The notes under the pieces were generated by a model that saw only the letters and a list, made by a program, of their open reading frames with translations, was not told where the DNA came from and searched no databases. A DNA stretch of 64,000 nucleotides, from assembly GCA_927407015.1 (NCBI GenBank), contig CAKMJT010000001.1, forward strand, positions 1 to 64,000, read 5' to 3'. How positions within the stretch are numbered: the first letter of the stretch is position 1; every line of letters begins with the position of its first letter. Origin of the DNA: an uncultured Proteiniphilum sp. (GTDB lineage Bacteria; Bacteroidota; Bacteroidia; Bacteroidales; Dysgonomonadaceae). The translations under genes and the position numbers were made by a program. Shown here one piece after another: positions 37,372 through 56,042 of the stretch.

Positions 37372-37629
37372 TCAGTTTTCGGGTTGTTGGATGATTCTTT
37401 TGCAACCGGTCAGCCTGGGAATACCCTGATCGGTTACTTCACAAATGAGATGAAGCGTTTGTTGCGCTGCGTCTGACGGGATCATTACCACTGCTCCTGA
37501 GGTATTGACAACTGCTATCTTTACCGCTCCCGGATAAGTCCCTGCCTCAGGCAACAGCCACCATTTGAAACTCAACTGATCACCTTCCGGATCAAAAGTT
37601 TCTGAGGCAGCCCTGATAGTGATGCTCAC
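37372..37629 (-). pseudogene. C-terminal remnant of a DUF1593-type protein
   Basis: The 85-aa frame contains FDPEGDQLSFKWWLLPEAGTY and ends in a TDQGIPRLTGCKRII strand. This matches the C-terminal beta-sandwich of DUF1593 (nucleoside-hydrolase-like) proteins. Its large N-terminal catalytic part is missing. The frame has only a GTG start and runs upstream into the GH30 remnant without a signal peptide. It is almost certainly a deletion relic rather than a small functional gene. Confidence 0.65.
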
Positions 37630-37634
37630 CGGAT

Positions 37635-38025
37635 TTATTTTACCTTCATCCTTACAGGAACGATGCTATTTCCCGCTACCTTAACAGATGCAGTCCGGGT
37701 ATCGTACCCGACTGAGGCGGTTGTAGGTTCCATGTTTCTTTCTGCTGTTGTTTCGAGGGCACTTATCTGGCTGATTGTCCCCTGTAATGAAATTTGACCG
37801 AGCCAATCCATCTGCCATCATGTTCAACAGTTCAATACTGATTTCTGTTTCATCTTCGTTGATGTATGCGGTTGCTTTCACCGCAGGATCTCAGACCTCC
37901 ACCTTTATCCGGGTCATACCGGAAGCATATTTTGCATAATGAGAAAGGATATATCCGTTTCTCAACACTTCACCGGGTGCTGCGCAGATAAGGGTAAAAA
38001 GTATAGGATGAAATAGCTTTTGCAT
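37635..38025 (-). pseudogene. GH30-type xylanase remnant: leader plus C-terminal domain
   Basis: The frame starts with a signal-peptide-like MQKLFHPILFTLICAAPGE. It passes at once into NGYILSHYAKYASGMTRIKV, which is the start of the C-terminal beta-domain of GH30 xylanases. The whole TIM barrel is missing. An in-frame TGA stop at 37893-37891 and a frameshift near 37785 interrupt the rest. After the shift the frame reads ISALETTAERNM and ends SIVPVRMKVK. The family assignment comes from the C-terminal pattern only. The gene is plainly dead. Confidence 0.7.
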
Positions 38026-44958: not shown

Positions 44959-46347
44959 TTACTCAGAGAACCTCCAGTAATCGAAGTACATCAGGTGGCT
45001 TCCGGGTTTTCCCCTGACGATGAAATAGAGGTCGTGCAGACCGGTGACACCGGCCAGATCAGCCGACACCACAGCCCAGCGATCGCTGCCCCCGGTACGG
45101 GGAATGCGCATTGATGCAATTATCTCACCCTCCCGGCTTCCCAGCCTCACCTCCAGGGTGACGGGGTCATTGTGTGTGGTGCCCACACGGGCGGTGAATT
45201 GAGTGGCACCTTTCTCCCGGAAATCCACCTCACGTACCCTGATATAGGCGCCGTCCCTGTTGGCCGTCACAAATACCCCCACCTGATCATTCTGCGACGA
45301 CTTGAATCCTTCGGAGAAGGCGATGGTCTCTGCCTGGTTCAGCAGGTAGGGATTCAGTGTGGCCACACCCTTGCTGGTCCCTTCAGTCATGTTCAGTTGC
45401 GGGATGGATCCGTTGGGGTTGAACCGCAGCTCTTCCACCGCCACGGAGCGGGTAAAGCCGCCACCACCCGGCAGTGCACCGTTGTGATAGAAGAAGTAGG
45501 TTTTTCCCCTGAAGTCGATTACCCCGGGATGGTTGGTGAATGCCTTTCCCTGGGCAGGCATCACCACACCCCCGTACTTCCAGGGTCCTTCCGGGTGCTG
45601 ACTGGTGGAGTAACCAATGTGTTCCGGCAGGGGGCCACCCGGCCAGAAGAGATAGAAGAGGTCGTTTCTCTTGTAGAGCCAGGGTCCCTCCTCGTAGAGG
45701 GTGCTGCGCTGCGGGTCTCCTTCTCTTTTGCCGAACGATTCCACGGTGAGGGGTACCTTCACGATATCGCCCTCGTAGGAGATCATGTCTTCGTTCAGCT
45801 TCACATAGTAGAGGTTGGGGTTCCCCCAGTAGAGATAGGCCTGCCCGTCGTCGCCTATGAAGACGGTAGGGTCAATATCTCCCCAGTCGGTCTGTGCCAG
45901 CGGCTTGCCCAGCGGGTCGTAAAACGGCCCCAGGGGGCTGTCGGCCACCGCCACACCAATGGCTCCCCGGTTGTTCTCCCTGGCTATCACCGGCACGTAC
46001 ATATAAAATTTACCCTCTCTCTCAATGCACTGTGCTGCCCATGCATCGCCTTTGGCCCACTCGAAATCGCTGTATGAGAGCACCACACCGTGGTCGGTCC
46101 AGTTCACTATGTCGTTGGTGGAATAGAGGCGCCAGTCGTCCATGGTGAACCAGGTAGAACCATCGGCATCATGGGTGGTATAGAGGTAGAGCCGGTCGTT
46201 CCATACCATGGGGGCCGGGTCGGCGGTATAGCGTGTCTGGACGATAGGATTCTGTGCCATCACGGGTTCGACGGTTGCCACCTGCAACACAATCAATAGT
46301 AAGAAGAGAAACACTCTCTTTTTTCTTTTAGGAACAGAAATATTCAT
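44959..46347 (-). CDS. GH43 (subfamily 29-like) with C-terminal CBM6
   Basis: This 462-aa secreted enzyme has its start placed at [15 protein letters not shown], giving a signal peptide ending in PVMAQ. It is built like the gene at 38068: base Asp in [11 protein letters not shown], second Asp in [12 protein letters not shown], acid Glu in [13 protein letters not shown]-terminal CBM6-type module runs from [13 protein letters not shown] to YFDYWRFSE. An arabinofuranosidase acting on xylan is most likely. The divergence between the two paralogues in the loop after the acid Glu (FWPGGPLPE versus YASTCCPEG) suggests they handle differently substituted xyloses. Confidence 0.9.
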
Positions 46348-46412
46348 TCGCGATGCTATTTTTGTTGAGTGAGATGGTAAGTAAGAATTGATTTTGATCA
46401 TTCGTTTCAGAA

Positions 46413-47639
46413 TTATTTTTTCCATAAGTTGGGTAAAAAGCGGAAGTATAGCAGATGCCGCCAGGTGGACCAGTCATGGCCGCCGTTGCCGCCGATGTAA
46501 TATTCATGCTCTATCCCGTGATGGGTCAGTGCATCGTGCAGCGCCTGGCAGCGCAGGTTGAAGAAGCCTTCAGCTTCTTTTTTTCCCTGGCCGACAAAGA
46601 GATAATCCACCTTGCTGTTGACCTGCGAATCTTGCAGGAAGTGCTGCAGGGTGTTTTCCGCATCGGTGTCGCCCGCACTGAGGATGCCGAAGTTGGCAAA
46701 CAGGTCGAGTGAACGGAAGCCGATGAACATGCTGTGACGCCCACCCATGGAGAGCCCCGAGATTGCCCTTCCTTTGGGCTCTTTCCGGGTTGAATAACTC
46801 TCATCCACCAGTGGAATCACATGTTCCCGCAGCTCTCTTTCGAACAGGTCGAACGTCAGTTCTGCATGGCGGGGATGGTTCCTGTGGATGATCTGGTTAT
46901 TGGGAATGACGATCAGCATCGGCTCCGCTTTTTCCTCAGCCAAGAGGTTGTCCATGATGAGGTTCACCCTGCCGTCGTAGACCCAGTTGGAGGGCAGCTC
47001 ACCGCTCCCGCCCAGCAGGTAGAGCACCGGGTACTGCTTGTCGCTGCGGTATCCGGGTGGGGTATAGACATACAGCTCACGATCCCCGTTGGTGACGCCG
47101 GAGTGGTAGATATGCCGGACCACATTGCCGTGTGGCACCTGCTTTGCATCATAGTAACCCGGCTTATCTCCATGTACCACCAGTTGACTGTAGGGTGGCA
47201 TAGCGGTGAAGGCTGCGAGGGTGTTGGAGGGATCGGTCATCTGCATCCCGTCCACACGGAAGTGGTAGGCATAGATATCGGGATCCAGTGGACCGATGGT
47301 CAGCGACCATATCCCATCCTCCCCTTTGGTAAAGGGAATGGGCTGATTGCCCTTCCCCAGTGCCGTAAGGATGGCACCGGGAGGGAGCAGTACCTCACCT
47401 GAACCGGGTGCTTTCAGCCGGAAGGTGACGGTCCGGTCAGCATGTACTTCGGGTGAGTTGAGCGGTGCACTGAAAGGAATCAGTCCCCCGGTATCCTGGT
47501 GCGGGTTGTAATCGAGGTTCACATTGGCCTGCTGTGCTGCTGAAGGAAACGAACATTCCAGGAGAAGGCACAGCAGGAACAGGCAATTTTTCGGGATTCT
47601 TTTCTGTTCCCGTAAGCTATTATGTGAAATGAAATTCAT
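46413..47639 (-). CDS. CE1-type esterase (feruloyl/acetyl xylan esterase) with N-terminal CBM48-like domain
   Basis: This 408-aa secreted protein has its start chosen at [17 protein letters not shown], followed by a hydrophobic leader ending in SAAQ. An N-terminal early-set (CBM48-like) domain covers about 45-140. The esterase-D fold follows, with the Ser elbow [13 protein letters not shown] and the catalytic His in [13 protein letters not shown]. Such enzymes remove ferulate or acetate from arabinoxylan. The gene lies next to a stub of a second CE1 gene (47666-47785), so the locus once carried two. Confidence 0.88.
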
Positions 47640-47665: not shown

Positions 47666-47785
47666 TTACTGGAAGAGCAACTGAGCAAACTGATAGAGCG
47701 ACCTGCGCCAGGTGAGCCATTCGTGGGCTGTGCTGAGTGTCATGACGGCTATCAGACATAGACACCAAATATTTCTTTTGTTCAT
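47666..47785 (-). pseudogene. CE1 esterase micro-remnant: signal peptide joined to last 19 residues
   Basis: This 39-codon frame is too short for the ORF track. It reads a good signal peptide (MNKRNIWCLCLIAVMTLSTA) and then directly HEWLTWRRSLYQFAQLLFQ. The second part is the His-containing C-terminus of CE1 esterases; compare [19 protein letters not shown] in the next gene. The complete catalytic body of roughly 250 or more residues is missing, yet the join is in frame. It lies 4 bases after the GH31 start-side neighbour's 3' end and 26 bases before the intact CE1 gene. Confidence 0.75.
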
Positions 47786-47789
47786 CGTG

Positions 47790-50201
47790 TTATAGTTTTA
47801 TGATCAATTTTTTTCCTGTGTAGCGTACGCTCCGGCCGTTTTCCTGACCGGGTTCCATTCCCTTTCCATTTTCGGGTGTCACTAGCGTGATATGGAAGGT
47901 GCGCTCCTGCAGTATACCGGGAAACGCACCCTCGCGATCACCGATGATCAGGTTTTTTTTATCATCATCCCAGCTGAAAGTGATGGTGGAAAAGAGCCCC
48001 TTCTCATAGTTGTAGTTGTCTTTCTCATCCTCGTAGAGGGTGAAGGTGCCGTCAGCACCGGGGTAGACACGTATTTCCAGGCTGTCCCAGGGTTTTTCCT
48101 CAGCATACTGCACCTCCGGACCGATGGGAAGGATGGAGCCGCTCTTCACATAGAGGGGTATGATATCAATGGGTGTCTCACGTCGGATGGTCTGCCCGCC
48201 ATTGAGCAGTTCGCCTGACCAGAAGTCGACCCATTTTGCACCTGTTGGCAGATAGAGTTCCCGGCTGCCGGTGACGGAGTAATCCTCCCGGTTTTCCCGG
48301 GTGTACATCGACTCGGTCACCGGAGCCACCAGTAGCGATTTGCCGAACAGGTACTGATCATTGATATCCAGTACCTTTCTGTCATCCGCAAAATCCATCA
48401 CCAGCGCCCTTATCATGCTGGATCGGTTGCGCGTCACATCCCACGAAGTGGAATAGATGTATGGCAGCAGCCGGTAGCGCAAACGGATAAATTTTTCAAT
48501 GGCATCATACTGTATGTCTCCTTTATGACCGAATTGATAAATCTCACGGGGTGCATCGGCTCCATGGGAACGCATCATGGGTGAGAAAGCGCCGAACTGC
48601 AGCCAACGCACGTAGAGCTCCCGATATGCAGGGTCCTGCAGTTTCCCCGGGAAATTCCAAAGGAAGAAACCGCCGATATCGCTGTTGTAATGTGGTATGG
48701 CGCAAAGAGTTAGATTGAGTCCCCCCGATATCTGATTACGGAGGGCATCCCAGGATGCGACTACATCGCCCGACCAGACGTTGGCACCGTAACGCTGTTG
48801 ACCCGCGAAGGCAGAACGGGTGAGGATGAATACCCGTTTGTCGCTCATCACCTTGCGTTGGTTGGTGTAGACCCCACCTACGGTCATCAGCGGATAGGCA
48901 TTGCGCACCTTCCGGAAGGAGCCCAGATAGGTCTGGTTGTCAAAATCTTCCGGTTTCCAGTCGAGATGGTCTGGCTCGGTGGAGTCCATCCACCAGCCAT
49001 CCATGCCGAGGGAGAGCAGGCCCTTGTTCAGATATTTCCAGTATATTTCTCTTGCCTGTGGGTGATACGCATCATATACCCTCACACCCGAGGGGTAGTC
49101 GGGATTGGGTGGCCACTTCTCTGACCCTGACTGGGGCCAGGTGATGAAGTCCATCAGCATATTGCCCTCCTTCAATTCCCTGTATGGCTTGGTCATGGGG
49201 CCGAACGATGACCAGATGGAGATGATCATATGCGCATGGAGGCGATGTACCTCCTCAACCATCCTTGCCGGGTCATAGAACTCGGGATTGAGGAACTCCA
49301 TGGCGTTCCAGAGGTAGTTGTTGCCCCAGTACTGCCAGTCCTGGATGATACCGTCGAGGGGTATCCCCAGTTCCCTGTATCTCCTGACTACACCCACCGT
49401 CTCATCCTGGCTCTTGTAACGCTCTTTGCTCTGCCAGTAACCATAGCTCCAGAGGGGAAACATGGGTACATCGCCGGTGAGTTCACGCATCGCGGCAACC
49501 ACACCATCGGCATCGCCCCCGTAGAGAAAGTAGTAATCGATGCCGTCACCCACCTCCGAGACGAGGGAGGTCTCCTGTGGCGTGTCTGTGAACTGCGTGG
49601 GTGAGTAGTTGTCCCAGAAGAGACCATATCCCTTCACCGACTGGAAGAAGGGAATGTAATCATCGGTGTTGCCCTGGATCATGCGCAGGCTTGTGTTCCT
49701 TTGATTCATCTTCCCCTGTTGCTGGATCCCCAGACCGTAGATCGCCTCATCCTCCTCCAGCAGAAAAGTCTGTCCCACGCTGTAGGTCGCACTTCCGGCA
49801 TCGTTGAAGGGGCTAAAGGTGCTTCCGGAGGGCTTTTCCGCCAGCAACAGCCTGCCTCTCTCCGTGTGGAAGAGTACCTGCCCGCTGACGCTGTTCACCT
49901 CTACGCTCAACCTGTCGCTGGAGAGCGTGATCCGATCACCTTTCGTCCCGTATCTAAGCGCACTCTTTTCCGCTGTCCTGATCACCGAGAGACTCTCTTT
50001 CGCAAAGTTGGTTCCGGTCGACCATTTCAATATGCGCACGATGACGGGAGAGAAGAATTGTACTTCTATCGTACTGTTGTCAGTGATGATCCTGGCTCCG
50101 CTAACGGTTTTCTGCCACCCGGCGGCATCAGCCACAGGGTGATAAAAGAGCAGGAGCAGCAACAATCCGGTAGCATTCCTGAATGTTTGACAATGTTTCA
50201 T
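47790..50201 (-). CDS. GH31 glycosidase, probable alpha-xylosidase
   Basis: This 803-aa secreted protein, start at MKHCQTFRNATG, has the GH31 layout: N-terminal beta-sandwich, TIM barrel, then proximal and distal beta-domains. The nucleophile Asp is in GWWMDSTEPD and the acid/base Asp in ANVWSGDVVASW. IIQDWQYWG and the region HYNSDIGGFF are substrate-site segments typical of alpha-xylosidases and related GH31 enzymes. It would remove alpha-linked xylose, which is found on arabinose side chains of complex cereal xylans. It is encoded between GH43_12 and the CE1 cluster. Confidence 0.88.
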   Translation of the reverse strand: MKHCQTFRNATGLLLLLLFYHPVADAAGWQKTVSGARIITDNSTIEVQFFSPVIVRILKWSTGTNFAKESLSVIRTAEKSALRYGTKGDRITLSSDRLSVEVNSVSGQVLFHTERGRLLLAEKPSGSTFSPFNDAGSATYSVGQTFLLEEDEAIYGLGIQQQGKMNQRNTSLRMIQGNTDDYIPFFQSVKGYGLFWDNYSPTQFTDTPQETSLVSEVGDGIDYYFLYGGDADGVVAAMRELTGDVPMFPLWSYGYWQSKERYKSQDETVGVVRRYRELGIPLDGIIQDWQYWGNNYLWNAMEFLNPEFYDPARMVEEVHRLHAHMIISIWSSFGPMTKPYRELKEGNMLMDFITWPQSGSEKWPPNPDYPSGVRVYDAYHPQAREIYWKYLNKGLLSLGMDGWWMDSTEPDHLDWKPEDFDNQTYLGSFRKVRNAYPLMTVGGVYTNQRKVMSDKRVFILTRSAFAGQQRYGANVWSGDVVASWDALRNQISGGLNLTLCAIPHYNSDIGGFFLWNFPGKLQDPAYRELYVRWLQFGAFSPMMRSHGADAPREIYQFGHKGDIQYDAIEKFIRLRYRLLPYIYSTSWDVTRNRSSMIRALVMDFADDRKVLDINDQYLFGKSLLVAPVTESMYTRENREDYSVTGSRELYLPTGAKWVDFWSGELLNGGQTIRRETPIDIIPLYVKSGSILPIGPEVQYAEEKPWDSLEIRVYPGADGTFTLYEDEKDNYNYEKGLFSTITFSWDDDKKNLIIGDREGAFPGILQERTFHITLVTPENGKGMEPGQENGRSVRYTGKKLIIKL

Positions 50202-50309
50202 CGTAATCTGTTTTTCGTTGCCCAGCTGCACCGGGATCGGGTATAGAATCAATGGATCTGCAGATTCAGTGATCTGCGGTATGCTGGTTCTCCGGCAAGC
50301 CGGTTTGAT

Positions 50310-52034
50310 CTATTCCGGGAGAGCATCGTTCATCGTGGTGGCATGCAGTCCGATCAGGTTGCCGGTGAAGCCGCCCGCCACATCGGTGGAGAGGATGTCT
50401 CCGGAGACCGTTTCACCCAGATTGTGAAAGGTCTTTCCGTCTGTTGCATAGTTGAAGCGGTAAGCATCTCCCTTTGCATTGATTTGTAGTGAGAACGGTT
50501 TCTCCGTATCAATAGGCGTGCTGGCCATGATGGTTGAGAATCCTTTCTCTGTGCGCTGCAGCACCAGGTAATCCTGCTTCCCTTTCCGGGTGACACCAAA
50601 GAGATAATGAAACCGCTCGCTCTGATAGCAGACCATGCCGGCCAGCTCCTTTTCCGAGGATGGTTTGTACTGCACGGTGGTGGTGGCAGTGAAATGTCTG
50701 TGCTGTTGGCGGTGGAAGAGGGTAGAGGTGGGAGCTGTCTCCTTGAGGTTGACCGCGAACGGTGTGAGGAGAATTCCTTTTTTGTCTGCTTTAATGAACT
50801 CTTCCCGGGGACCTCTCACCCCTATCCAGCGGTAGTCCGGCGCTGTCGACCGGAAATCATCCTGAAAGGTGAAATTACCGTTGGGAAAGAACTCCTCCCT
50901 GCCGGTTTTATTCGACACGCCTTCCGGCATTTTCAGCTTCGGCATCATGGGCACCAGCCCGTTCTCAAACACGGGGTACCTGCCACTCCAGTCAACCGGA
51001 AGGATAAATGTTTCACGACCGGTGTTCACCCTGTTCTGTTCATTGGGGCGGATAGCCAGGAAAACACCGTAATATTTCCCGTCGGGACCCTCAACCAGGT
51101 CGGCATGTCCTGCCCAGTCCACCTTGTTTTCCCGGTCGGGATGCAGGTAACGCTGCGACAGAATGGGGTTGTTGGCAGCCGGCGTATAGGGACCCTTGGG
51201 GTGATCGCTGGTGAAGATCACCTCACTGTGCCAGTCACCGGTACCCCCTTCGGCACACATCAGGTAATAGGTACCCTCTTTTTTGTAGATATGGGGTGCC
51301 TCAATCCAGATCGGTTGCCGGGTAATATCTACTCCGCCATCAACAATAATCTGGTCGCTGCCGGGGATCACCTGATCCTTCTCCATGTCATACTCCCATA
51401 TCTTGATCACCCGGTGACCCTCATACAGCTCTTTGCCTCTGTCGGGTGCATCATTGTGGACCACATAGGCCTTGCCATCGTCATCGAAGAAGAGAGAGGG
51501 GTCGATACCGCTGAAATTGAGTTTCTGCACCTCGCTCCATCCCTTCAGGGGGTCTTTTGTTTTCACCACCATATTTCCAATGTTGCCGGCAATCTGGGTG
51601 GTGATCATGTAAAAAGTATCATTGTTGGGGTTGTACTTGATGGCCGGAGCGTAGATCCCCGCACTGATGCCGCTGTCATGCACGATCAGCTGCGATTTCC
51701 GGTCGAGAACATGGCCAATCTGCTTCCAATTCACCAGGTCGTTGGAGTGGAAGATGGGGACTCCGGGGAACATGGCAAAAGAGGAAGTTACAAGGAAATA
51801 ATCTTCTCCTTTGCGGGTAACGGAGGGGTCTGGATAACAGCCCTGCAGGATCGGATTATAGAATTCATCCGGTTGCAGCGGGTTCTCTTCGTACACAGGA
51901 TCTTCACCCTGATAGATAAATTGACTGAAAACGGGGTGGTTTGAGCTAACTCTCTTTTGGGCGTTGATCCCGGTAACGGTAAACGACAAAGTTAATGCAG
52001 TCAGCTGTAGCGTGAGATTCATTGTTCGGTTCAT
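50310..52034 (-). CDS. GH43 (subfamily 12-like) beta-xylosidase/arabinofuranosidase
   Basis: This 574-aa secreted enzyme has a signal peptide ending in VTGINAQ and a GH43 propeller. The base Asp is in GCYPDPSVTRKGEDY, the second Asp in SGIDPSLFFDDDG and the acid Glu in IWIEAPHIYKKEG. A C-terminal concanavalin-like beta-sandwich (about 385-570) follows, as in GH43_10-12 xylosidases. It would hydrolyse xylose or arabinofuranose from xylooligosaccharides in the periplasm. It is the first gene downstream of the hybrid sensor gene, 120 bases away. Confidence 0.9.
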   Translation of the reverse strand: MNRTMNLTLQLTALTLSFTVTGINAQKRVSSNHPVFSQFIYQGEDPVYEENPLQPDEFYNPILQGCYPDPSVTRKGEDYFLVTSSFAMFPGVPIFHSNDLVNWKQIGHVLDRKSQLIVHDSGISAGIYAPAIKYNPNNDTFYMITTQIAGNIGNMVVKTKDPLKGWSEVQKLNFSGIDPSLFFDDDGKAYVVHNDAPDRGKELYEGHRVIKIWEYDMEKDQVIPGSDQIIVDGGVDITRQPIWIEAPHIYKKEGTYYLMCAEGGTGDWHSEVIFTSDHPKGPYTPAANNPILSQRYLHPDRENKVDWAGHADLVEGPDGKYYGVFLAIRPNEQNRVNTGRETFILPVDWSGRYPVFENGLVPMMPKLKMPEGVSNKTGREEFFPNGNFTFQDDFRSTAPDYRWIGVRGPREEFIKADKKGILLTPFAVNLKETAPTSTLFHRQQHRHFTATTTVQYKPSSEKELAGMVCYQSERFHYLFGVTRKGKQDYLVLQRTEKGFSTIMASTPIDTEKPFSLQINAKGDAYRFNYATDGKTFHNLGETVSGDILSTDVAGGFTGNLIGLHATTMNDALPE

Positions 52035-52154: not shown

Positions 52155-55100
52155 TCACAACTTGGAAGGAGATTTACCAAAATAAGCTTTAAAGGCAGCA
52201 CTAAAATACTTTACACTGGAGAAACCACATAACTCACTCACCTCTGTGATGGTATATGTACCCGACTGAATTAATTTCAAGGCATGATTCAACCGGATGC
52301 TTCTGATGAAATCGATAGGCGACAGGTCCGTCAGCGATTTGATCTTTTTATAGAGAAGGGATGAACTGACGTTCATTTCTGACGCGAAGGTCTCTTTGTT
52401 GAACGCTGAATTATCCATATTGGCATGTACCACAGACACTGCTTTCCTGACAAATTGATCGTCCAGTTCATTCAGGTAGATAGGTTCACCCTCTTCCTCA
52501 TCGATGAGTCGAAGGGCTTTTTCTCTGACCGTCCTACGGTTTTGAATGATATTGGATATGCGTTGAAGCAGCAATGTCATATCGAACGGTTTTGTCAGAT
52601 AATCATCCGCACCCAGCCCCAGTCCGTGTAACTGCTGCGATTTCTCATTCAATGCGGTCAGCAGAATAACCGGTATATGGGAGGTTTCGTAGGTTGATTT
52701 GATGAGCCGGCATAATTCAAAACCATCCATATTGGGCATCATGACATCCGAGATAATCAAATCGGGCAATTTTTTCTGCACCATACTCCAGGCCTCCTGA
52801 CCATCTTTTGCGACAGCTATTTTGTATTTGCGTTGTAATGATTGCTGCAGAAACTTTTTTAAATCATCATTGTCTTCCACAATCAGGAGTTGTTCTTTTT
52901 GATCGCTGTCGGGTTGGTTTTCCGGGATGGATTCGTCCTTGATGAGGAGTTGCGAGGCATGATTTTCATTTCGTGGTGCACCCGCAGAGAATGATGGAGA
53001 AGTCGCCGTGACCTCCTTATAGGGTATGATGATGCGAAACAGTGAACCTTCATTCTCTTTGCTCTCCAGCGATACGGTACCATTGTGCATGGCTACGTAG
53101 TTCTTGACCAGCAACAGACCGATACCCGAACCCACAATGGTTGAGTTGACCACATTGTCGCCTCTGTAAAACTCTCTGAAGAGTTTTTTCCGGGCATTTT
53201 CTGAAATTCCCAGACCATGATCCTTTACCTCCAGCATCCATTTATTTGGGTCACTGGTCAGTTTGATCTCAATCTCACCCTCCGGATGTGAATATTTGAT
53301 GGCATTCGATATCAGGTTGTCGATCACTTTCTCAATTTTCAGTTCATCCACTGCCGTCACATAGGACTCTTTGTCAGCGCTGAACAGAAGCTTTATCCCG
53401 TGTTTCAGGGCTGCTGCATCGAACATTGACTTTCGCTGACTTACAATCCTAACCACATCGGTCATCACAAAAAAGGCCTGCCCTTTTCCGATATCCACCT
53501 TCTGGAAATCGAGCAATTGATTGGCCACATAGGATAGACGTTCAGACTGCTCCGTGGCCAGATTGAGGTAATAACGTCCTTCACCCGACAGGTTTTTTTC
53601 CTTGTTCAGCTCCTCAATAGGTGCATTGATAAGGGTCAGGGATGTGCGGATGTCATGAGCCATGTTGGTGAAAAAACGGATCTTATCTTCTGCATGGTGT
53701 TGTCTGATCTGGTTAATATAATACCTGAGGGCAAAGAACAGTATGGATACCATTACAAAGAATACCCCCAGACGGAACAAGACTGTATTCCACCAGGGAG
53801 GGGTGATATGAATCAGTAGTGATCGCTCGTTGATAATCTGTTTCATTGAGCTGTCGTACATGCGTATTTTCAGCGTATAGTCGCCACTGGGCATACTGGC
53901 ATAGGTGATAGCCCTGGAGTTGGCTGGCTGGGTCCACTCCCCGTCAATCCCTTCCATCTTCCATGAGAATTTGGAATAGAGAGCGGTGGTGCCGATGGGT
54001 AGAAAATCCAGCGTCAATGTATTTTGATTATACTTCAGTGATATCTCCTGTAATTCATCCAGCGGAGAGTCGATTGTCACAAAAGGACTGTTTCGCAATG
54101 AACGGCCTGAAATGACGATATCCTGAAAATAAATTCTCCCTTTGGAAGGTGAAAAGAGTACAGCGTCGGGTTCGAACATCAAGGCACCGCTGCTGGTACC
54201 CCAGATGAGTTGTCCGTTCGTTAATTGCAGTGATGCGTTCTGATTGAAAGAGACATTGAAAAAAGGAGGCAGCGATGAGAAAACAAGCATGTTTTTCTCC
54301 TCCATATCAAATTTACAGAGTCCCGATTCTGTCCCCAGCCATAAGTATTTCCCTTCCCTGAGGATACTGTTCACATAGTTAGAGGGCAATCCGGTATCGG
54401 TTGTGAATTTTTCAACCGTATTGTCTCTCAGGTTGTACCGCACCAGCCCATCTCCCGAGGTTGCCATCCATACATTATCACCAATGATGATCAGATCATA
54501 CAGGAGATAACCATCCAGTATGGTGCGGGTCTGGGCTGTTTGTATGTCCAGCAGCGATAATCCGTAGGTACAGGCCAACAGGAGATTACCGGGGGAGTGT
54601 TCGGCAAAAGCATAGACCGGTTGAAAAGGATATTCCATAAAACGGTTTTCTCTTTCTATATAACGGAAGATCTGACCCAGGGGACTCCCCATCCAAAGAT
54701 CACCGCGGCTGTCTTTGAAAATATCAAAGATATAATTGTTGGTCAGGGATGAATGGTCATCTTCGCTCGAATAATGGGCTATCTCCCTGCCGGATGTACC
54801 ATCGATGACGTATACGCCGGATGAGTAGGTCCCGGCCCAGATATTGCCTTTCCTGTCCTCACACAGAGAGAGGAACACTTGTGCCTGCTCCTGTTCGTTC
54901 TGATAAAACGTACGCCAGCTGTCTGTTGAGACATACCAGCAACTCACTCCGTTATTGGTTGCAAACCAGATGTTACCCCGATTGTCTTCAATGACTTTGT
55001 TTACGTTATCATTACTCAGTGAGTTGGCATTGTTGATTTGATGTGTGATCTGAGTAATGTCAGCCGATCCCTGGTCAAAATAGGACAATCCACCACTATA

Positions 55101-56042
55101 GGTGCAAATCCAGACACGTTTATGCGGGTCAAGAAAAATATCATAAACCCCATTGCCCTTCAACGACAAGGGATTATCTGCATTTTCCTTATAGATGTTC
55201 AATACCTTGCTGCCGTCCTTTGACAATTCCCAAATACCCTGTCCGTCTATCCCGACCATCAGTGTTGAATCTGTGTTCGCTTCAATGGCGTAAATCGGTT
55301 GTTTGGGAAAAGGATGCAGCAGTGATTCCCTAAAAATATTTCTCTTCACATCAAACAAATATAGGCCATCAGAACTTGTCCCTACCCATAGCTTATCATC
55401 CGCTTTATTGTAAAAGAGTTTTGTGACTTTAACCGTATTATTGTCCGTGTATTTGAATATCTGGCGGTCTGAAAGTGAATGGGTGTTCATGAGCCAGAAT
55501 CCGTTATTGGTCCCCATCAACAGATGAATATCATCGTACCATTCCAAATCCTGTACTTCGGCATATTTCTCTTTCCCCAAGTGGATCAGCTTGTTATCCT
55601 GAAATTTATACAAACCAGTAGTGGCCGCAATCAGTAAAGAGCCATTGTTGTCAATTACGATCCTGTTTAGCACCAGATGACTGTCATTCAGTGGCTTGCG
55701 GATATCTACCAACAGGTCAAACCGGTCAAAAACAGCATTATAATAAAAAATCTGTCCGTTGTTGGTATATGCCAGCAACGAATCCTTTTCATACAGTAGT
55801 TTTGTATTGATGATGTTGGGTGTTTCGTATGGCAACTGATAGATATGGTAACTGTTATCCGTTAGCCGAAGCACACCAATTTTGGAGGAAGCCCAGATAA
55901 ATCCGTTCTTGTCCCTGCAAACAGAAGCGATCTCTCTCATGCTGATTCCATGAATGGTGTTGATATCATAGAACTTTACATTGGAGGAATAGCTGACAAG
56001 AATGGAAAAAAAGAAAGCGGCTATGAATAATCTGGTTTTCAT
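52155..56042 (-). CDS. Hybrid two-component system sensor/AraC regulator (HTCS)
   Basis: This single 1295-aa protein senses glycan fragments and activates the locus. In order it has a signal peptide, two seven-bladed regulatory propellers (about 20-690, with repeats such as GFIWASSKIG and DLWMGSPLG) and a Y_Y_Y domain. A transmembrane segment lies near residue 785 (LGVFFVMVSILFFALRYYI). The histidine kinase core follows (FTNMAHDIRTSLTLI; HATPase with GSGIGLLLVKNYV), then a receiver domain (ISDVMMPNMDGFELC, DDYLTKPFD) and a C-terminal AraC domain. The usual Pro after the phospho-His helix motif (HDIRTP) is Ser. It sits mid-locus between GH43_12 and GH3. Confidence 0.96.
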   Translation of the reverse strand: MKTRLFIAAFFFSILVSYSSNVKFYDINTIHGISMREIASVCRDKNGFIWASSKIGVLRLTDNSYHIYQLPYETPNIINTKLLYEKDSLLAYTNNGQIFYYNAVFDRFDLLVDIRKPLNDSHLVLNRIVIDNNGSLLIAATTGLYKFQDNKLIHLGKEKYAEVQDLEWYDDIHLLMGTNNGFWLMNTHSLSDRQIFKYTDNNTVKVTKLFYNKADDKLWVGTSSDGLYLFDVKRNIFRESLLHPFPKQPIYAIEANTDSTLMVGIDGQGIWELSKDGSKVLNIYKENADNPLSLKGNGVYDIFLDPHKRVWICTYSGGLSYFDQGSADITQITHQINNANSLSNDNVNKVIEDNRGNIWFATNNGVSCWYVSTDSWRTFYQNEQEQAQVFLSLCEDRKGNIWAGTYSSGVYVIDGTSGREIAHYSSEDDHSSLTNNYIFDIFKDSRGDLWMGSPLGQIFRYIERENRFMEYPFQPVYAFAEHSPGNLLLACTYGLSLLDIQTAQTRTILDGYLLYDLIIIGDNVWMATSGDGLVRYNLRDNTVEKFTTDTGLPSNYVNSILREGKYLWLGTESGLCKFDMEEKNMLVFSSLPPFFNVSFNQNASLQLTNGQLIWGTSSGALMFEPDAVLFSPSKGRIYFQDIVISGRSLRNSPFVTIDSPLDELQEISLKYNQNTLTLDFLPIGTTALYSKFSWKMEGIDGEWTQPANSRAITYASMPSGDYTLKIRMYDSSMKQIINERSLLIHITPPWWNTVLFRLGVFFVMVSILFFALRYYINQIRQHHAEDKIRFFTNMAHDIRTSLTLINAPIEELNKEKNLSGEGRYYLNLATEQSERLSYVANQLLDFQKVDIGKGQAFFVMTDVVRIVSQRKSMFDAAALKHGIKLLFSADKESYVTAVDELKIEKVIDNLISNAIKYSHPEGEIEIKLTSDPNKWMLEVKDHGLGISENARKKLFREFYRGDNVVNSTIVGSGIGLLLVKNYVAMHNGTVSLESKENEGSLFRIIIPYKEVTATSPSFSAGAPRNENHASQLLIKDESIPENQPDSDQKEQLLIVEDNDDLKKFLQQSLQRKYKIAVAKDGQEAWSMVQKKLPDLIISDVMMPNMDGFELCRLIKSTYETSHIPVILLTALNEKSQQLHGLGLGADDYLTKPFDMTLLLQRISNIIQNRRTVREKALRLIDEEEGEPIYLNELDDQFVRKAVSVVHANMDNSAFNKETFASEMNVSSSLLYKKIKSLTDLSPIDFIRSIRLNHALKLIQSGTYTITEVSELCGFSSVKYFSAAFKAYFGKSPSKL

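Follow-up and report, generated by a model that had tools for sequence, protein, structure and literature searches.

Known CBM48-CE1 esterases of Bacteroidota xylan polysaccharide-utilisation loci (PULs) include Bacint_01039 (PDB 6NE9), wtsFae1A (6RZO), and DmCE1B_ct (7B5V), and a study of the Dysgonomonas mossii xylan PUL, in which 6NE9 is identified as Bacint_01039, described the CBM48-CE1 architecture as common to 6NE9, 6RZO, and DmCE1B_ct (PMC8040265). It is also established that bacterial pseudogenes are lost mainly by deletion (Kuo and Ochman 2010, PMC2916853). Here, we describe a short ORF in a window of 64,000 nucleotides (i.e. the whole stretch of DNA that was analysed), which has the leader and the TAHEW...LLF C terminus of the CBM48-CE1 esterases but, unlike them, lacks the CBM48 domain and the CE1 fold save for the last ~20 residues. 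The locus resembles deletion-eroded pseudogenes (PMC2916853) in that a gene inactivated by deletion lies between intact neighbours in a conserved neighbourhood; it differs from them in that ~90% of the gene was lost in apparently one step and the ends are joined in frame.

Results

The ORF encodes 39 amino acids between an ATG start and a TAA stop and is made up as follows.

47666..47785, (-): relic of CE1-A; leader (20 codons) plus the final 19 codons of a CBM48-CE1 esterase, in frame

Its translation consists of MNKRNIWCLCLIAVMTLSTA (leader) followed by HEWLTWRRSLYQFAQLLFQ (C-terminal part) and the stop; the whole peptide, as read from the window, is MNKRNIWCLCLIAVMTLSTAHEWLTWRRSLYQFAQLLFQ. 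Across 39 genomes of the genus, residues ~16-39 matched the C termini of ~392-aa ORFs with 83-95% identity (best E value per genome, 3.7e-10), and residues 1-22 matched N termini in G026:C15, G020:C134, and G029:C1 with 50-59% identity (E values of 2.8e-4 to 0.1). Both sets of matches fall in the same ORFs and in the correct order, i.e. in one intact gene family (CE1-A), and their strength goes far beyond chance. An earlier note on this DNA had described the ORF as a 39-residue CE1 relic with a leader fused in frame to an esterase C terminus, and the match of both ends to one intact CE1-A gene bears this out.

In Proteiniphilum-like congeners, full-length CE1-A is a 389-aa CBM48-CE1 esterase of the feruloyl/acetyl-xylan type. 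The intact CE1-A of G029 matches 6NE9 over residues 7-388 (E value of 5.6e-173), as well as 7B5V (1.5e-117) and 6RZO (1.4e-115). It also matches PF00756, and no Pfam match was found for the 39-aa relic ORF. Past the leader, the relic retains 19 residues, including the His of AHEW, which aligns with intact CE1-A and 6NE9 and which, from what is known of the CE1 family, we take to be the catalytic His. The GxSxG nucleophile Ser, the acidic residue, and the α/β-hydrolase body are absent, by which the relic does not qualify as a CE1 enzyme; with the CBM48 domain gone along with the nucleophile Ser and the entire hydrolase body, it cannot be an esterase. Alignment to the intact orthologues thus agrees with the note that the catalytic body is gone and that the frame, leader, and terminal His region are kept.

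The relic lies in a cluster that would correspond to a xylan-type PUL, the substrate being judged from the gene families. The cluster contains a hybrid regulator, GH43, GH31, CE1, GH43-CBM6, GH97, GH127, a PETase-like hydrolase, a further GH43-CBM6, and a glucuronoyl-esterase-like gene, and a SusC/SusD pair lies further on. The features that bear on the relic are as follows.

52155..56042, (-): hybrid two-component regulator, head of the cluster
50310..52034, (-): GH43 gene; directly precedes CE1-A in congeners
47790..50252, (-): GH31 gene, 4 nt upstream of the relic; between GH43 and CE1-A
46413..47639, (-): intact CE1-B esterase, 408 aa, PF00756; ATG 26 nt after the relic stop
44959..46425, (-): GH43-CBM6 gene; in most congeners, next after CE1-B (or CE1-A)
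37375..37635, (-): second decayed gene; Sde0182 C-terminal domain without the nucleoside-hydrolase-like body

The order in congeners is regulator-GH43-CE1A-CE1B-(GH43)-GH97-GH127, and CE1-A directly precedes CE1-B in G026:C15, G026:C223, G018:C24, and G029. Because congeners carry CE1-A directly before CE1-B, full CE1-A belongs at the position of the relic; related genomes with a full CE1 at this place, which the reading in the earlier note requires, do therefore exist (G029, G026, and G018). The 26 nt between the relic and CE1-B equal the spacing that follows intact CE1-A (26-27 nt in the measured cases, G026:C15 and G029). In this assembly (estimated to be 94.7% complete), we found no intact orthologue of CE1-A at any other place, the best remaining CE1s being 42-50% identical. 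Among the congeners examined, GH31 stands between GH43 and CE1-A only in this genome and in G015, a sister species, in which GH31 is 89% identical to that of the window. We note that GH31 genes ~60% identical to the window's occur in other contexts in other congeners.

The earlier note had also observed that the adjoining CE1 gene is alike at its C terminus, and the intact gene at 46413-47639 does carry an analogous C terminus. It had proposed from this that the relic began as a tandem duplicate, which does not hold. At 32% identity, CE1-A and CE1-B are too far apart for the relic to be a recent tandem copy, and several congeners have them next to each other as distinct families; they are ancient paralogues, and the relic belongs to CE1-A. 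A copy of the adjoining CE1-B was rejected as the source since the closest matches are CE1-A orthologues, and the two most similar other CE1s of this genome, G000:C1:91200-91265 and G000:C1:108640-108708 (73% and 61% over the C terminus, respectively), were rejected because the syntenic CE1-A genes are the closer match and cover the leader as well.

The second decayed gene is a 97-aa open frame that matches PF21027 (E value of 1e-22), and ~490-aa open frames with the Sde0182 C-terminal domain are present in G029 and G010. In G009:C64 (L035 3252-5825), Sde182-like and glucuronoyl-esterase-like proteins are fused in a ~853-aa ORF; they are separate in the window.

The place at which the ends of CE1-A meet can be read approximately from the sequence.

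47726..47731, (-): deletion junction (approximate); shared GCC, perhaps ACAGCC(C); ~1,047 bp missing compared with intact orthologues

In all four intact orthologues in which both sides could be placed, the join corresponds to the removal of 1,047 bp (349 codons). The intact genes read ...AGC Axx GCC and then (C/A)GG GCC CAG on the leader side, and ...GGT ACG GCC and then CAC GAG TGG on the C-terminal side; the relic reads AGC ACA GCC CAC GAA TGG. The homology at the junction could be as little as GCC and no more than about 8 bp, as estimated from the sequences of relatives rather than that of the ancestor itself. Because the two sites carry (Thr/Ser)-Ala codons in register, an in-frame join needs no selection. 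The A-x-A signal-peptidase site that precedes Q in the intact protein (e.g. SSAKA-Q) lies within the deleted part.

In G015, which lacks CE1-B, the position of the relic is occupied by ATGAACAGAAAATTTTTATGG joined to ATTTTGCTCAGTTGCTCTTTCAATAA; this shorter relic keeps ~7 codons of the leader and the final 7 of CE1-A, joined out of frame. We scanned contig C1 of this genome (139,677 bp) and a 33-kb part of G015:C117 for additional remnants with a procedure that is blind to those inside unrelated long ORFs, such as this relic. It yielded the Sde182-like remnant in the window and two remnants in G015:C117, namely a GH43 gene cut to ~8 start codons and 25 end codons (L031 187-362) and a PETase-like/GH43-CBM6 pair cut to a leader and an end (L031 9443-9540), both out of frame. 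Because the G015 relics are out of frame, the frame of such remnants is not conserved; and, because G015 carries a different CE1-A relic and two further end-relics, the cluster is one that has been pruned by deletion.

The synonymous divergence (dS) between the genome of the window (G000) and G015 is 0.43-0.67 (GH31, GH97, and GH43). A neutral remnant older than the split of the two would be expected to have gathered ~9-14 substitutions (an estimate from half dS multiplied by the number of sites). The 18 C-terminal codons retained in the relic (~43 non-synonymous sites) show no amino acid change compared with L156 and L157, two relatives in which the gene is intact, with the species represented by one genome. 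Hence, unless selection acts on the peptide, the deletion must be far more recent than the split. The C-terminal conservation could reflect selection, for which we see no other support; we favour youth because no similar ORF occurs in the other genomes of the family that were searched and the frame is lost in G015. If the deletion is indeed that recent, then the one in G015 is independent, and CE1-A was probably lost once in each of the two sister species. An older deletion common to both species, followed by a second one in G015, is conceivable in strict terms.

Discussion

We consider that the ORF is a recent loss-of-function remnant of CE1-A left by a single ~1,047 bp deletion, i.e. a product of ordinary gene decay, and put the probability of this at roughly 0.88. 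The ancestral operon would have been GH43-(GH31)-CE1-A-CE1-B-GH43-GH97. One deletion of ~1,047 bp, mediated by a few bases common to both sites (GCC, possibly ACAGCC), would then have fused the Thr/Ser-Ala codons of the leader to the Thr-Ala codons just before the presumed catalytic His. The downstream operon would be undisturbed, as the start and stop of the relic and its spacing to CE1-B are unchanged. The sequences show directly that both ends are homologous to CE1-A, that the place is syntenic, how large the deletion is and in what frame it lies, and that the body is gone; we infer the one-step, short-homology mechanism, the recent date, and the absence of function from these comparisons.

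A misassembled join in a genome that in fact carries an intact CE1-A seems very improbable. The genome is a 63-contig draft, but no more than about 8 bp are common to the two ends, a match too small to mislead an assembler into collapsing them; the contig, 139 kb long, has both neighbours in the expected order, and the sister species has also lost CE1-A. Even less credible is a functional small peptide for export, which would be HEWLTWRRSLYQFAQLLFQ once the leader is cleaved off; the earlier note had suggested that a small secreted peptide could now be encoded. In its favour, neither the ORF nor the leader is broken, one can discern by eye a possible S-T-A cleavage site, and the retained C terminus has no non-synonymous change relative to two relatives; such conservation, though, is equally expected from youth, and the deletion took away the cleavage site of the intact protein. 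Among 101 genomes of the family, no other such short ORF was found at an E value of 0.001 or below (only G000 itself matches), and the relic in G015 is out of frame.

It is somewhat less unlikely, although we still doubt it, that the relic ORF was kept as a translational spacer or leader over which ribosomes would pass from GH31 to CE1-B, avoiding polar loss, with its amino acid sequence being irrelevant. The small gaps (4 nt to GH31 and 26 nt to CE1-B, the second being the spacing of intact operons) would suit such a role, as would the out-of-frame relic in G015, which has no CE1-B, a correlation drawn from two genomes. One-third of deletions would be in frame anyway, and two genomes are too few independent cases. 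A broader form of this idea, that short-homology deletions repeatedly strip enzyme bodies from operons in the genus and leave their start and stop ends, with selection favouring open-frame joins that keep downstream genes expressed, of which the relic would be one selected as a spacer, we regard as quite improbable.

Read as a product of decay, the relic would be a clean example of how Bacteroidota trim PULs enzyme by enzyme. Its interest is modest and lies in the probable repeated and independent pruning of one esterase, the deletion of pseudogenes itself being already known. It is also a warning for annotation, as an in-frame mini-ORF with a leader need not be a peptide gene.

Two variants of CE1-A were seen in other congeners. 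A copy in G018:C151 (L161 1-815) has an internal out-of-frame deletion of ~40 residues near the contig end, which may represent decay or an assembly error; G018 also has an intact CE1-A copy on C24. Further, in G024, G016, and G025 (L172 3370-6240, L173 4685-7555, and L174 7374-10244, respectively), CE1-A is fused to the preceding GH43 in one 956-aa ORF.
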